From an uncultured bacterium (lineage in GTDB: Bacteria > Bacillota > Clostridia > Oscillospirales > Acutalibacteraceae): a stretch of 64,000 bases of DNA. The stretch is taken from assembly GCA_949283655.1 (NCBI GenBank), contig CASDTH010000043.1:1-64000 (forward strand). The letters run 5' to 3'. The translations under genes and the position numbers were made by a program. Shown here in pieces: positions 57,536 through 63,325 of the stretch. Under the pieces are notes generated by a model. That model saw only the letters and a program-made list of their open reading frames with translations. It did not search any database and was not told where the DNA came from. Positions within the stretch are counted from its first letter, which is position 1, and the number at the start of each line of letters is the position of its first letter.

Positions 57536-58798
57536 TCACTGCAAAGCAGAATAGCTTCCGTTGGCGCTATATACCAAATAATTCTCAAGCCCGGCTTGCT
57601 GGAGCGCATTGACCTGCACACTCAAGGAAACGCCTGCCTCCAGCACTGGCATCAACGTCGCACCGCCAACCGCTGCCTTCAACTGCTCGCCTGCGGCGGT
57701 TAGAAACGCTGCGGGATCAGCTGCGTTAAACACTTCTTCCCCAGCCGTAACGCCGCGCTCCAGCCCCGACAGACGGAAATCAGGCAAGTAGCCATCTGCT
57801 CCGCTGCCAAACAAGCTGCCGTGGTATTGCTCCTCATCTCCGCCCAGAGCGCCTGCGCCGGACTGCATCAGCAGGAGCTCTACTTCTCCAGCGGCGTTTT
57901 TGGCAGCCGCCACAAAGTTCTTCAGCACCTCATTGCGAGAAACTCCGCTCTCGCTCTCCCCTGTATAATAGGTACGGTTCAGCGCATATCCGCTGGGGAA
58001 TTGGACGCTGTCCAGCACAATTCCGTCAATTTCCATCGCGGCGAGCTCACCAATCAAACCGGTTAAATAATTTTGCACCGTTTCGGAATAGGGATTTGCC
58101 CAAGGTTTTCCGCCTTGATCCAAGCTGTTATCCAGCCAGAGTGTACCCGGCCGTTCATAATAGACGGCACTGCCCTCGCCCAGCCTGCGTGCTGCAAGAG
58201 GATCACGGAAGCATTGCAGCTGGATCATTACCTTTAGGCCATTTGCACGTATTTTCTCCACGGCCTGAGCAAAATCCGCATAGGCGCTCTCAGCCGCTCC
58301 AATGGTTGCTGCCTGCTCCAAGCTGGTGGGGAACAAAAGCTCCCCCTCCACATTCTTTCCCTCCAAAAGAACGGTGGTGGCGCCAAGCTGCTTGACATTG
58401 GCAAGGAAGGGTTCCAATGCGGAATCGCTGCGGAAGGTATCCGCCGGGAGCCATACCGCCACGCCAAACGTTTGCTGGGCCGGTTCCGTTTGCTGTGGCG
58501 TCTGCTGTGTGCCGGCCTGCTGCGCGCCGGTATCCGTTTGGGAGGGATTGTCAGTCACTACCGGCTGGTTGGAAAGATTCAGCGCAAAATCGGTTACGAA
58601 AAAGGCGATGGCCACCACTGCGGCAAACCCCAACGCCAGCAAAAGAATCTTTCCGATTTTTTTGCCGCGCTCCATATGACTTGTGCTTTTCCGGAAGCGG
58701 CCACGGCGGCTTCCATCCGGAAAATCCTTGCGGAATCCATAATAGCTGGAGCGATAGCCGGAGCCGTAATCCTTTTTCACCTTATACTTTTTACCCAT
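57536..58798 (-). CDS. Membrane-anchored DUF4015-type putative glycosidase
   Basis: 420 residues. A basic, Tyr/Arg/Ser-rich cytoplasmic head (about 1-48), one membrane helix (about 49-70), a Q/T-rich linker and an extracellular TIM-barrel-like domain. The stretch LWLDNSLDQGGKPWANPYSE followed by DGIVLDSVQFPSGYA matches the NPYxxxV...D.IQFDYVRFP pattern of DUF4015 proteins, thought to be glycosidases. Substrate unknown. It lies 156 bp downstream of rnfA on the same strand and ends at a terminator. Confidence 0.7.
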   Translation of the reverse strand: MGKKYKVKKDYGSGYRSSYYGFRKDFPDGSRRGRFRKSTSHMERGKKIGKILLLALGFAAVVAIAFFVTDFALNLSNQPVVTDNPSQTDTGAQQAGTQQTPQQTEPAQQTFGVAVWLPADTFRSDSALEPFLANVKQLGATTVLLEGKNVEGELLFPTSLEQAATIGAAESAYADFAQAVEKIRANGLKVMIQLQCFRDPLAARRLGEGSAVYYERPGTLWLDNSLDQGGKPWANPYSETVQNYLTGLIGELAAMEIDGIVLDSVQFPSGYALNRTYYTGESESGVSRNEVLKNFVAAAKNAAGEVELLLMQSGAGALGGDEEQYHGSLFGSGADGYLPDFRLSGLERGVTAGEEVFNAADPAAFLTAAGEQLKAAVGGATLMPVLEAGVSLSVQVNALQQAGLENYLVYSANGSYSALQ

Positions 58799-58954: not shown

Positions 58955-59548
58955 TCAAACAAAAATCGAGTGCCCGGAAAAACCGGTAAACGCAAGCGCT
59001 AGCAAAGAAACATAGAGAAACAGCGCCGGCGTTCCCCGGAATGCCCTTGGGATACAGTCATTATGATCCAGCACATGGATCCCTGCATGGATCAAAAACA
59101 CCGCAAGTGCAAATGCCGCGCCCGCGCCAATCCCCGCGCCCAGCGATTCACCCACTGTGTAAGCAGCGCTGCGGTTAATCAATGGGATTGCGAGTAGCAG
59201 CGTATTAAAAGCCGCCATGCCAATCTTACGCAGTATGCGATCCTCCGCATGAAGTGCATAGCGGAAAACCAGCACCGTGATACTATACAGTATAAACAAC
59301 ACGCTGATATATATGAGCAACCGTACAAGCGTATGCGCGCCGCCAATTTGCGGAATCAACTCCAATGCGCGGCAAATCAGCGAGGTTGCAATGGAAAAGC
59401 CTGAAATAAACAGAGCGAAGGAGATCACGTAGCGCGGCTTGGAAGAGATACGGATCGCCTCGCTTGTGCCGAATCCTCCTGTAAAAATAAGGTTTTGCAG
59501 CAAAAGGGAATACATCGCCGTTACAATAAGCGCTACAAACCAGCTCAC
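58955..59548 (-). CDS. rnfA: RnfA-like membrane subunit lacking the iron-binding cysteines
   Basis: 197 residues, six membrane helices. Homology to RnfA/RsxA is clear at the end (AFRGTPALF and LALAFTGFSGHSI against PFRGNAIAL and LAFMGFSG). In canonical RnfA two cysteines, in GLCPF and TTNCAVLG, bind the membrane iron centre. Here the aligned residues are serine (FGTSEA) and threonine (AFNTLLLA). So electron transfer through this subunit is doubtful. Start at GTG 59548, with GGAGGA seven bases upstream. The rnfE end overlaps it. Confidence 0.8.
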   Translation of the reverse strand: MSWFVALIVTAMYSLLLQNLIFTGGFGTSEAIRISSKPRYVISFALFISGFSIATSLICRALELIPQIGGAHTLVRLLIYISVLFILYSITVLVFRYALHAEDRILRKIGMAAFNTLLLAIPLINRSAAYTVGESLGAGIGAGAAFALAVFLIHAGIHVLDHNDCIPRAFRGTPALFLYVSLLALAFTGFSGHSIFV

Positions 59549-59550
59549 GG

Positions 59551-60780
59551 TCAATCCTCCCCCTTCTGTTCTTTCTGCTCCGGCTCCCCGGCCGCCTTTT
59601 TCTCTTCTTCGCGCCGCCTGTTCAGAGCGGCTAAAACCTCTGCAAAGCTTTCCAGCTCTTCCTCCTGCTGAATTCGAATCGGATCCGGCGGCATATGGGT
59701 CCGGGCTTGGCGAGCTGTTTTATCCGCCTGAAGCGGCCTCCCCGCCTTTTTTTCAGATCGCTTCTCCGCACGCTTGGCAGGCTGCGAACCAGCAGCTGAT
59801 CCTGGCATCTGCTCAGGCTCACTGCTTTCCGGCTTTCTGTGCGCGGTGGGCAAGCGCTTTCCATCAAGCGCTTTCTGCTTCATAGCTGGTTTGGCAGGCC
59901 GCTGCTGAGGGGCTGTGGCCTGCTCGGATGCCTCCGCCTTTTTCTTTCCCAACTGTTTGCGCTCAGGCATCTGCCGGTTTTCTGCTTTCATCTTCCTGCC
60001 GCTACCGCCATGCGCTTTGGGCTGGCTGCCCTGCTTTTGATCGCCTGTATGCTGCGCGTGGGCCGCTTGCACAGACCTTCCTTTCTGGATGAACCGGAGC
60101 AGCGGCTCCATCACGGAGCCCTCCTCCTCATCCACATGGGCAACAGGTGTCTCCAGCTCCTCCTCGCCCTGATGGCGGCGGTTATAAAGCCATTTCACTG
60201 CGGCAGCCAAAAAGCCCAGCATCAAAAAACCGCCAAAAGGCATCAGCAATCCAGTCGCCCATGGCCCGGCAAAAACCGGATAGCCCCAAATGGCGCCGGC
60301 CCCCAGCAGCTCACGGAACAGGCCGAGCAACAGCACCACAGCCCCATAGCCAAGCGACGCTCCCACCGCGTCCAGCAAGCTGATGCGCAACCGGCTTTGC
60401 ACAGCGCAGGTTTCACAGCGGTAAACCGTCAGCGAATTGACTGCCAACAGCGGCAGGTAACTGCTTAATGGCCCCAGAAGGTTTGGAAAAAAGCGGTCGC
60501 AAATTGTCATGCCGCCCGCCAGTATTCCATAGCTGAGCAGGACATATAGCCCAATGCGCAGCCAAAAGGGCAGCCGCTTGAGCAGCAGCGTCGTTAAAAG
60601 CTCCATCACGATCAGAATGAACGCTGCAGCCAGAGCAACGATAACCGCTGATTTCACGCTGGCCGCCAACGCAACCGCCGGAAACAGCCCGATAAACTGC
60701 ATCAAAACCGGATTTTCCCGCAGGAGGCCCCGCCGGAACGCGTGCCGGCCGGAGGGCCGGTTTTCTACCTTATCATGCAT
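59551..60780 (-). CDS. rnfE: RnfE-like membrane subunit with a long charged C-terminal tail
   Basis: 409 residues. The first about 210 align with RnfE: RGLLRENPVLMQFIGLFPAV, YLPLLAVNSLTVYRCE and FRELLGAGAIWG. The two iron-binding cysteines of canonical RnfE (GLCP and VTNC) read phenylalanine (GLFP) and serine (AVNS). Two cysteines appear instead in YRCETCA. The last about 190 residues form a hydrophilic tail rich in K, Q, E, A and P, not found in normal RnfE, probably cytoplasmic and disordered with a final helix (about 375-405). Start ATG 60780 overlaps the rnfD stop; ATG 60795 is possible. Confidence 0.8.
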   Translation of the reverse strand: MHDKVENRPSGRHAFRRGLLRENPVLMQFIGLFPAVALAASVKSAVIVALAAAFILIVMELLTTLLLKRLPFWLRIGLYVLLSYGILAGGMTICDRFFPNLLGPLSSYLPLLAVNSLTVYRCETCAVQSRLRISLLDAVGASLGYGAVVLLLGLFRELLGAGAIWGYPVFAGPWATGLLMPFGGFLMLGFLAAAVKWLYNRRHQGEEELETPVAHVDEEEGSVMEPLLRFIQKGRSVQAAHAQHTGDQKQGSQPKAHGGSGRKMKAENRQMPERKQLGKKKAEASEQATAPQQRPAKPAMKQKALDGKRLPTAHRKPESSEPEQMPGSAAGSQPAKRAEKRSEKKAGRPLQADKTARQARTHMPPDPIRIQQEEELESFAEVLAALNRRREEEKKAAGEPEQKEQKGED

Positions 60781-61822
60781 GCGTGCCACCCCCATTCTCT
60801 AATTGGGAGGCTGCCGGAGGCAGCTTTTTCCCCTGACGATCACGCATCATGCTCTCCACCATTGGCCAGGCCGCATTCATCAGCAGCACCGCAAAGCAGG
60901 CCCCCTCCTCATAGGCGCCGAAATAGCGCAGGAGCATGCATAACGCACCGGCGGCCATGCCATAAATCAGCCTTTGCAGATGCGTCTTGGGCAAGGTAGC
61001 GGGGTTTGGCAGCAAAAACAGCGCCGTGAAGACCAGCATACCCGCTGATATCTCCATCGTTAGCGAAAGCTTACGCCCTGTGAGAATGCGCGGAAACAGC
61101 ACCGAGCACACGGAGCACACCGCCACAAAGCCCGCCGAGCTCAGCCACAGGGAGGAGTGAAACATAAAAAAGGCGATTGCAACGCCGAACATCACCAGCA
61201 TACACGTGGCGCCCATCGGCCCGGGCACTTTGCCGATCACAGCGTTAAAATAGCTTAGAATATTGCCGCTAATCGAATTGTGCACCCGCAGCATGGAGGC
61301 AAACGACGCCCCCTCCACAAAATCCTTCGAGCCTGTCACAAGCACCTGCCCCGGCTGCTCCATAGCAACCGCCGGGTAGGTAAACACCAGCTCCGGCCAG
61401 CAGACGCAAAGGAAGGCAATGCCTGCCGCCGCAGGGACAAACGGCGTCTTCTGCGCGCTTCCGAAGGGAAGCTTTGCCGCCACAATGGCAAACGCACTGC
61501 CCGCAGCAGGGAGCCAGTAGGGCGCCGAGGCAGGCAGCAGCAGTGCAATCATCGCACCGGTCAAGGCTGCATATACCGTATCGATCCCGGGCCTTCTGCG
61601 CATCAGAGCCGTGCCCAGTGCATCGCACAGCACCGCCGTCAGGATAGAAACCGCCAAAAGGCCAAGCGCCCTCCACCGGTAATAATAAAACGCCATCACC
61701 GCCGGGGCAATCAGCATCAGCAGTGTGGAAACCGTGTAGGATCGAAATTCCTTCTCAGCAGGCGTCCGTAGCCCTTCACTCGAAGCGGTCAAACGCCTCA
61801 CCGCCTTTCTTTTCAAAGTCAT
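60773..61822 (-). CDS. rnfD: RnfD-like membrane subunit with altered flavin site
   Basis: 349 residues, about nine membrane helices. It aligns with RnfD/RsxD over its length; RLIYGMAAGALCMLLRYFGA and EGACFAVLLMNAAWPMVE are clear. In canonical RnfD the motif DGxSxATPL carries covalent FMN on threonine; here it reads EGASFASML, with serine in that place. The SGATMLGAFF motif is also changed (SAGMLVFTALF). Start ATG 61822 with AAAGGA. First of the rnfD-rnfE-rnfA set; no rnfG lies between D and E, where it normally is. Confidence 0.8.
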   Translation of the reverse strand: MTLKRKAVRRLTASSEGLRTPAEKEFRSYTVSTLLMLIAPAVMAFYYYRWRALGLLAVSILTAVLCDALGTALMRRRPGIDTVYAALTGAMIALLLPASAPYWLPAAGSAFAIVAAKLPFGSAQKTPFVPAAAGIAFLCVCWPELVFTYPAVAMEQPGQVLVTGSKDFVEGASFASMLRVHNSISGNILSYFNAVIGKVPGPMGATCMLVMFGVAIAFFMFHSSLWLSSAGFVAVCSVCSVLFPRILTGRKLSLTMEISAGMLVFTALFLLPNPATLPKTHLQRLIYGMAAGALCMLLRYFGAYEEGACFAVLLMNAAWPMVESMMRDRQGKKLPPAASQLENGGGTHA

Positions 61823-61919
61823 TGTAGGTCCTTTGCCAGAAATTATGCATTGCATGCCCCCTGCCCGGGGCATATGATAAGGGTAGCAGACTGTTATGGA
61901 ACGAAGGAGGGATGCGCCC

Positions 61920-62510
61920 TTGAAAATTGAGGCGCCTGAGAGCAACAAAATCGTCATCCGGCTAACCGCCGGAGATCTGAGTAAGCTGCACATTACATAT
62001 GAGGAAATGGACTATGCCAACATTGAAACGCGACGTGTGATCTGGACGCTGCTCGACGAGGCGCGACGGGAGCTGGGCCACGATATTGACCCCTCCGGCC
62101 GGATGCTCATTGAGGCGCTCCCGGCAAAAGAGGGTGGCTGTGTTTTGCGCTTCACCGTCCTGCAGCAGGAGGAACAAGTGCAGCAACCGCGCCTGTCTCT
62201 CCGGCGGAGCGTCAGCCCGCTGATTTACGAGTTTGCCAATGCGCAGCTAGTACTGGATGCAGCGGCAGCCGTCCGCCGTTTGAAAGCATTCCCTGCGGAG
62301 AGCGAGCTCTACCGGCAGGCAGGGTGCTACCGCCTGATCGTCTCCCCCGCCGGAAAAAACGAGCTACTAACCATCGCGCTCACCGAATTCGGCGCGCTCT
62401 GCGCACAGGGGGAGCTGCCCGCAGCGATCACCCGCGAGCATTGGCGGGAGGTGTGTGGAGTCCATGCACTCGAGCGCATCAGCCCACCCCCGGATCACCC
62501 CTCTTTTTGA
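61920..62510 (+). CDS. MecA-like adaptor protein
   Basis: 196 residues. The N-terminal part (MKIEAPESNKIVIRLTAGDL, RRVIWTLLDEARRELG, GRMLIEALPAKEGGCVLRF) follows the MecA pattern of a substrate-binding domain. The C-terminal domain resembles the ClpC-binding MecA fold. MecA adaptors deliver proteins such as ComK to ClpCP. Start at TTG 61920 with AAGGAGGG eight bases upstream; ATG 61896 lacks a binding site. Divergent from rnfD with 97 bp between, and its 3' end overlaps convergent rpe by 16 bp. Confidence 0.75.
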   Translation: MKIEAPESNKIVIRLTAGDLSKLHITYEEMDYANIETRRVIWTLLDEARRELGHDIDPSGRMLIEALPAKEGGCVLRFTVLQQEEQVQQPRLSLRRSVSPLIYEFANAQLVLDAAAAVRRLKAFPAESELYRQAGCYRLIVSPAGKNELLTIALTEFGALCAQGELPAAITREHWREVCGVHALERISPPPDHPSF

Positions 62511-63160
62511 GCCAGAGACCGCAGCGAGGCAATCATCTGCGCCGCATCCGTTGCACCGAAGACCGCGCTGCCCGCCACAAACACATTGGCGCCGGCCCCG
62601 GCTGCGGCTGCGACCGTTTTTTCACTGATCCCGCCATCCACCTGAATATCAATCGGCAAATTGCGCCGGTCGGCCTCCCGGCGGATCGCCTCCACCTTCG
62701 GCAACATCTCCGGCATGAAGGATTGCCCGCCGAAGCCCGGCTCCACCGTCATCACCAACACCATACCCAGCCTGTCGAGATACGGAAAAACCGCCTCGGC
62801 GGGTGTTTTGGGCTTCAGGCTCAAAGCAGGCACCGCACCGCCCGCGCGGATGAGCGCAATGGTTTCCTCCACCGGCGAATCCGACTCGATATGAAAGGTG
62901 ATGATATCCGCGCCCGCCTTCAAAAAATCCGGCACATATTGGAGCGGATTGCTGATCATCAGATGCACATCAAATGGAATTGAGGCATGGGGGCGCAGCG
63001 CCTTTACAATGGGCGCGCCAAGCGTGAGATTTGGGACGAAATGCCCATCCATCACATCGATATGCAGCCAGTCCGCACCGCATTTTTGCATGCGGGCAAA
63101 CTCTTCGCCCATGTGTGCAAAATCGCAGGAGAGGATGGAGGGGGAAATTTTTATCTTCAT
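62495..63160 (-). CDS. rpe: Ribulose-phosphate 3-epimerase
   Basis: Interconverts ribulose-5-phosphate and xylulose-5-phosphate. 221 residues: ISPSILSCDFAHMGEE, WLHIDVMDGHFVPNLTLG (metal ligands), DVHLMISNP, VEPGFGGQSFMPE and VDGGISEKT. TIM barrel, complete. Start ATG 63160 with AGGAGG. In many Bacillota rpe is beside rsgA; here its neighbours are unrelated. Confidence 0.95.
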   Translation of the reverse strand: MKIKISPSILSCDFAHMGEEFARMQKCGADWLHIDVMDGHFVPNLTLGAPIVKALRPHASIPFDVHLMISNPLQYVPDFLKAGADIITFHIESDSPVEETIALIRAGGAVPALSLKPKTPAEAVFPYLDRLGMVLVMTVEPGFGGQSFMPEMLPKVEAIRREADRRNLPIDIQVDGGISEKTVAAAAGAGANVFVAGSAVFGATDAAQMIASLRSLAQKEG

Positions 63161-63325
63161 GGAATGCCTCCTGAAATCGGCTGAGAACAGCGATTGATAC
63201 AGAATATATTTTAACAATTTTCATGGGAAAGGTCAAGGAAGTCAGAGAACAGGCGGCGTATTTCAGTCAGGCAGTAAAACGCCCTTTGGGCAGGAGGGAA
63301 AGGCCAAAATTTTCTCACTATAAAA

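Follow-up and report, generated by a model that had tools for sequence, protein, structure and literature searches.

Three overlapping genes, D', E' and A', were analysed in a 64,000-nucleotide window from an uncultured bacterium of the family Acutalibacteraceae (GenBank assembly GCA_949283655.1, contig CASDTH010000043.1, positions 1–64,000). They lie on the minus strand at positions 58955–61822 and encode relatives of the membrane subunits D, E and A of the Rnf complex. D'E'A' is very likely an ancient membrane set that derives from Rnf and is functional, but does not have the known redox path.

D' (60773..61822, 349 amino acids) is RnfD/NqrB-like and matches Pfam family PF03116 (NQR2_RnfD_RnfE) with 194.6 bits. 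E' (59551..60795, 414 amino acids, RnfE/NqrD-like) and A' (58955..59554, 199 amino acids, RnfA/NqrE-like) match PF02508 (Rnf-Nqr) with 98.8 and 58.5 bits. All three Pfam matches are above cut-off, every NCBIfam Rnf and Nqr model falls far below it, and Pfam detected no FMN_bind or nicotinamide adenine dinucleotide (NAD)-binding domain in the set. D' and E' overlap by 23 bases and E' and A' by 4, in agreement with the single operon noted in a first-pass annotation of the sequence. We infer that D' starts at the ATG at 61822, because its frame, open to 61993, would otherwise overlap a divergent mecA gene. Only D, E and A are present at the locus; the six-subunit array of rnfC, D, G, E, A and B is not.

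A search of the genome (2.59 Mb, 99% complete) found exactly one Rnf besides the window set. Contig C32 carries apbE, a NusG-II-like gene, a heptaprenyl synthase component-like gene and a complete rnfCDGEAB. RnfC, RnfB and FMN_bind (RnfG) proteins above cut-off number one each genome-wide, all on this contig. Two PF02508 pairs are encoded, the canonical Rnf pair on C32 and that of D'E'A'. No nqrA-F cluster was found in the genome, with NCBIfam nqr models far below cut-off and both PF02508 pairs otherwise assigned. The first-pass annotation had noted that rnfC, rnfG and rnfB do not lie beside the set and had proposed a search for a complete rnfCDGEAB and ApbE; the absence holds, and both were found on C32. 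Because this complete cluster sits elsewhere in the same genome, D'E'A' is a paralog alongside a complete canonical pump.

An Rnf-derived clade with and without an RnfC-like gene

The alignment and phylogeny with Rnf subunits that had been proposed yielded a fully supported clade separate from canonical Rnf. In a tree of concatenated D, E and A (96 rows, 736 columns), the split between D'E'A' and canonical Rnf has a Shimodaira–Hasegawa-like approximate likelihood ratio test (SH-aLRT) value of 100 and a long stem, with the set as sister to canonical Rnf. An RnfC-like gene, C', precedes D' in about half of the clade. The window set belongs to a subclade of 37 rows without C' (SH-aLRT 100). Four C'-less rows outside this window subclade are explained: L055 and L052 have C' on re-search, L133 retains a fragment of it, and L134 begins at a contig edge. 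Locus L054 and the lineages of families f26 and f23 look like separate losses of C'.

Within the genus, comparison of two species gave ratios of nonsynonymous to synonymous substitution rates (dN/dS) of 0.095 for A' and 0.096 for D', and of 0.024–0.069 for the canonical copies. For whole E', including its C-terminal tail, the value is 0.34. A' and D' are under purifying selection, somewhat more relaxed than the canonical copies. Recent decay was rejected on these ratios and on conservation across the clade, in agreement with the earlier view that the genes are not decaying by stop codons.

C' (e.g., at loci L048, L049, L050, L051, L053, L056, L100 and L129) retains all eight [4Fe-4S] cysteines in 42 of 42 sequences. 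Its GMGGAGF motif for NADH and flavin mononucleotide (FMN) is lost, and a conserved D-E-x-D stands in its place. Canonical RnfC scores 161 bits for the Pfam FMN-binding domain; two C' score only 26–30 bits, and in one further C' the domain is unlisted. C' is an RnfC derivative that has apparently not been described before, and cultured species carry it. No rnfG, rnfB or apbE was found at any of the 86 related loci. The first-pass annotation held that linked rnfG, rnfB or rnfC homologs would speak against repurposing; rnfG and rnfB are absent from these loci, but about half of the clade does have the RnfC-like neighbor. A lipoprotein gene between D' and E' at locus L042 was considered as an RnfG relic and rejected, since its product appears CAP-domain-like by eye and bears no resemblance to RnfG.

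As to INDEPENDENCE from Rnf, a canonical RnfA/E pair is present in 32 of the 34 genomes with the set and in neither G253 (99% complete, 2 contigs; L137) nor G051 (97%, 10 contigs; L050 and L169). Both of these near-complete genomes carry C'. They have no RnfB above cut-off and only one RnfD each; FMN_bind proteins are absent from G253 and limited to a weak one in G051. The C'-bearing type, at least, is independent of canonical subunits, because these two genomes carry it without them. G253 nevertheless has an ApbE. Another genome, G027, carries two canonical rnf clusters, on contigs C2 and C57 (L168 and L167), plus a C'D'E'A' set.

Redox sites, predicted fold and the E' tail

Residues were compared with structures 9eri, 8ahx and 7zc6 and with 16 canonical Rnf sets, 15 of them from relatives. 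The four positions of the RnfA/RnfE [2Fe-2S] cysteines are S31 and T118 in A' and F38 and S121 in E'. The same S, T, F and S had been named in the first-pass annotation, and they recur in the structure-based and the 16-set alignments, which rule out cysteines that are merely shifted. Across the clade, the first RnfA cysteine is kept in 0/95 sequences and the second in 14/95, and the first RnfE cysteine in 55/103 and the second in 0/103. The four-cysteine site is never complete in the clade, because the first RnfA and second RnfE cysteines are absent throughout. As judged from these alignments, the intramembrane [2Fe-2S] cluster, as known, cannot be built by D'E'A'.

The Cys-Pro of the first RnfA cluster site is replaced by S31-E32 in window A' (codons at 59459..59464, minus strand) and by (Ser/Thr)-Glu in the window subclade. 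Glu at position 32 is found in 43 of 43 A' of the window subclade and in none of the 16 canonical sequences, and is rare elsewhere. The cysteines of a YRCETCA stretch in E' had also drawn attention; conservation in the window subclade is 0.96 for C127, but the C130 column is not conserved.

Riboflavin in NqrB is bound by T162, N200, N203 and D346 (PMC9325719). In window D', N203 is replaced by V129 and N200 by T126. The N203 asparagine is kept in 16/16 canonical RnfD, 43/45 C'-bearing D' and 0/49 window-subclade D'. Elsewhere at the site, the window subclade rarely keeps N200, and it has Thr at T162 in 30/49 and Asp at D346 in 37/49. RnfD has its N-terminal arm embedded in RnfC (PMC9588780), and this RnfC-docking [AS]PH arm is gone from window D'. 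A relaxed version of the arm motif, [AS]P[HFY]..[RK], is found in 14/16 canonical, 24/45 C'-bearing and 0/49 window-subclade sequences. Of the 82 near-invariant columns of canonical RnfD, only four combine retention with C' (>=85%) and loss from the window subclade (<30%); they are N203, a glycine in the N203 loop, the proline of the arm and a valine.

The FMN position of RnfD is Ser173 in window D'. It is Ser in 47/49 D' of the window subclade and Ser or Thr in 94/107 D' overall, and the A and P flanking the flavinylated residue are not conserved. The change from Thr to Ser, seen earlier as a sign of repurposing, is real but not diagnostic, because Ser also occurs in 5 of the 16 canonical RnfD, this genome's own included. 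It was therefore ruled out as such a mark.

The Rnf fold is predicted to be retained in D' and E'. The AlphaFold model of D' has a predicted local distance difference test (pLDDT) score of 80 and an RnfD/NqrB fold, with 8ahx_D as best PDB match (template modelling (TM) score 0.74). The modelled E' core matches Acetobacterium woodii RnfE (9eri_E) with a TM score of 0.90 by target length. E' ends in a tail of ~200 residues (about 212–414; 59554..60162, minus strand) that is mostly disordered, with pLDDT <50 over most of 212–365. A helix at residues 372–401 (59593–59682, minus strand) reaches a pLDDT of about 85–88 at its middle in the AlphaFold model. It bears a short hydrophobic-acidic motif, FAEVLAAL in the window; the motif, a pattern picked after inspection, is present in 21 of 37 tails versus 1.4 in shuffles. 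The helix is a possible docking motif for a cytosolic partner. The tail does not serve generally as a substitute for C', as the separate C'-less f26 and f23 lineages mostly have short tails.

Ion-gate residues and possible functions

The R67-E115 ion pair of A. woodii RnfE is reported as central to Na+ binding (PMC11889175). Mutations R67A and E115K abolish autotrophic growth, and E115Q strongly reduces it (PMC11889175). The equivalents in window E' are R80 for R67, E128 for E115 and N120 for N107. In E' of the window subclade, the R67 position is Arg in 46/46, the E115 position Glu in 44/46 and Asp in the other 2, and the N107 position Asn in 43/46. R67 and E115 rank 1 and 5 among 69 canonical near-invariant RnfE columns, which have a mean retention of 0.40. 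E115 is kept in only 4/44 C'-bearing E'. The gate phenylalanines of NqrB, F338 and F342, correspond to F265 and F269 of window D', and the F338 position is Phe in 106/107 D'.

Because the electron-carrying centers are lost and key ion-gate residues are kept, D'E'A' may be an ion transporter that is not run on electrons. We tentatively favor, from sequence comparison, an Rnf-derived, redox-independent cation (Na+ or H+) transporter or gated channel, which is quite possible if short of probable. The model for A. woodii has the reduced cluster draw Na+ between RnfA and RnfE and set off an inward-outward switch. Both the rocker-switch pathway and the Arg80-Glu128 gate would persist in the A'E' pair. 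Glu32 of A', a fixed carboxylate at the former Cys-Pro site, would replace the Na+-attracting charge of the reduced cluster. The conformational switch would be set by the ion gradient, or by a cytosolic partner on the C-terminal helix of the E' tail, and not by electron transfer. D' would be the remaining structural or conducting partner. The first-pass proposal of a repurposed Rnf-like complex, perhaps a transporter, gains support from monophyly, purifying selection, redox-ligand loss and gate-residue retention. Its alternative, a redox device with different cofactors, fits the C'-bearing relatives better and the window subclade less.

Several observations weigh against a redox-independent cation transporter. 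An A. woodii E115A mutant grew like wild type (PMC11889175). A' has lost E88, T110 and T111 of RnfA, which were likewise assigned to the A. woodii ion path, and the glutamate of the RnfD GExS motif (NqrB E274) is lost in D'. The missing C', the missing N203 and the retained E115 amount in essence to a single contrast at clade level. Only 2–4 pairs provide independent contrasts of C' with the N203 or E115 states, without statistical support, and a statistical link was dropped for this reason. Ser173 could mean a residual covalent flavin. Canonical partners may act in trans, as all 13 window-type genomes examined also have a canonical RnfA/E pair.

Rnf may have given rise to two separation-of-function lineages, a doubtful but conceivable extension of the cation-transporter reading. 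The window type would have kept the A/E gate and changed the cluster site to Glu, as a gradient-driven or partner-gated cation transporter. The C'D'E'A' type would have kept the Fe-S/riboflavin arm and mostly lost the gate Glu.

Among the alternatives, a residual redox device is unlikely, if the least so. Covalent FMN would be attached to Ser173 by the genome's ApbE, electrons would pass between extracytoplasmic partners or come from canonical RnfG, and A'E' would act as a scaffold. The conserved Ser/Thr, the Ser in the genome's canonical RnfD and the presence of ApbE, also in G253 where FMN_bind proteins are missing, are consistent with such a device. However, the residues around the flavinylated position are not conserved and no redox genes lie at the locus. 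There is no known electron path to an FMN on Ser173, because the riboflavin Asn and cluster Cys are gone.

Slightly less likely still is a swap or regulatory module, in which D'E'A' would join canonical RnfB/C/G, or canonical A/E/D, and so modulate or block the pump. The subunits retain Rnf family and fold, and canonical RnfA/E co-occurs in every window-type genome searched. This idea is opposed by the lost RnfC-docking arm, by the old, separate clade with its own synteny, and by C'-bearing G051 and G253, which lack canonical RnfA/E, RnfB above cut-off and a second RnfD. A transporter or channel for another substrate, centered on D' and tied to envelope glycosidase genes, appears equally improbable. 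Its substrate would be either a precursor of the cell envelope or a small neutral solute resembling urea or ammonia. D' shares its fold with urea and ammonium transporters, the next Foldseek matches below Rnf/Nqr but much weaker (E 0.04–0.3), and some relatives have DUF4015, alpha-amylase, LytR-CpsA-Psr and transglutaminase-like genes as neighbors. The envelope genes may be mere neighbors, however; the hydrophobic gate F265/F269, which shuts the NqrB/RnfD pore, is kept, and the E' ion-pair residues are among the best-preserved columns. A decaying, functionless remnant of a second rnf operon would account for the loss of C', G and B, the dN/dS above that of canonical copies and the fast-evolving E' tail, but is highly improbable and already largely refuted by the selection signal of about 0.095, the intact frames, a gene order conserved at most loci and the subclade-specific invariant residues A' E32 and E' C127.

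Canonical Rnf (RnfABCDEG; A. woodii, Clostridium tetanomorphum) shares with the window set homologous D, E and A, their relative gene order, the predicted fold of D' and E', RnfE R67/N107/E115 and the NqrB/RnfD pore gate Phe. Unlike canonical Rnf, the window set has no [2Fe-2S] ligands, riboflavin Asn or RnfC/G/B, and has Glu at the A' cluster site and a long E' tail. D'E'A' is not classed as an Rnf complex despite this homology, because it does not match Rnf in its cluster ligands, riboflavin site and partners. Na+-translocating NADH:quinone oxidoreductase (Na+-NQR; NqrB, NqrD, NqrE) has the same membrane fold, and its NqrA is likewise a cofactor-less RnfC relative. It keeps the cluster Cys, both FMN and riboflavin, NqrC and NqrF, all of which appear to be missing from the window set. 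NQR/RNF-like flavinylated systems combine an RnfG-like protein with an RnfD-NAD-binding fusion in apbE gene clusters (eLife 2021, PMC8238504; 2024 preprint, PMC10979944). They are likewise a reduced Nqr/Rnf derivative with an RnfD-like subunit lacking the flavinylated Thr; in contrast, the window set includes E' and A' and lacks FMN_bind and NAD domains, and the genome's FMN_bind protein and ApbE are on C32. The C'D'E'A' relatives (Caproiciproducens galactitolivorans, L100; Anaerotruncus colihominis, L129) share the clade, an rpe neighborhood and the A/E cluster loss. Unlike the window set, they have an RnfC-like protein with two [4Fe-4S] motifs, mostly keep the riboflavin Asn and have mostly lost RnfE E115. 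No paper describing such a D'E'A' set was found in the literature.

Electron-ion coupling in Rnf and Nqr is under open debate, as is the choice between RnfD and RnfA/E as the ion route (PMC12174285, PMC11889175). A naturally occurring Rnf core without redox centers but with RnfE R67/E115 is what a test of the RnfA/E-channel model would need. If conduction of Na+ or H+ by D'E'A' proved independent of electrons, the RnfA/E-channel model would be strongly supported. A redox-independent cation transporter would also add a further transporter type for fermenting anaerobic Clostridia, and an 'RnfA/D/E' annotation in this order need not then imply electron transport.

Distribution and neighboring genes

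A single-sequence search found A' relatives in about a third of 60 genomes of the window's family. Across 245 genomes from the order, only families f1, f26, f5 and f23 yield profile scores above about 105 bits. Members outside the order were rejected; class-wide profile matches there do not exceed 108 bits, near what canonical RnfA scores. Among the named relatives are Caproiciproducens, Caproicibacter, Anaerotruncus colihominis, Merdimmobilis and a Ruminococcaceae metagenome-assembled genome (UBA1691).

Upstream of the set, a mecA-like gene divergent from D' (61896..62510, plus strand; PF05389, 48.7 bits) is followed by rpe, encoding ribulose-phosphate 3-epimerase (62495..63217, minus strand; PF00834, 258 bits). 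At the related loci, rpe is upstream on the same strand in 82/86, and mecA is present in 52/86, on the opposite strand every time. Downstream, a gene at 57536..58798 (minus strand) encodes a single-transmembrane protein with an extracytoplasmic DUF4015 (putative glycosyl hydrolase) domain (PF13200, 76.6 bits). Lying on the same strand, it is a possible member of the D'E'A' operon. A single-transmembrane DUF4015 gene follows A' at 46 of the 73 loci showing A'. The DUF4015 gene of several relatives retains only an N-terminal stretch and the transmembrane segment, with the glycosidase-like domain gone. Many window-subclade loci (e.g., L045 10413–14368) continue with alpha-amylase-family, LytR-CpsA-Psr and transglutaminase-like genes.

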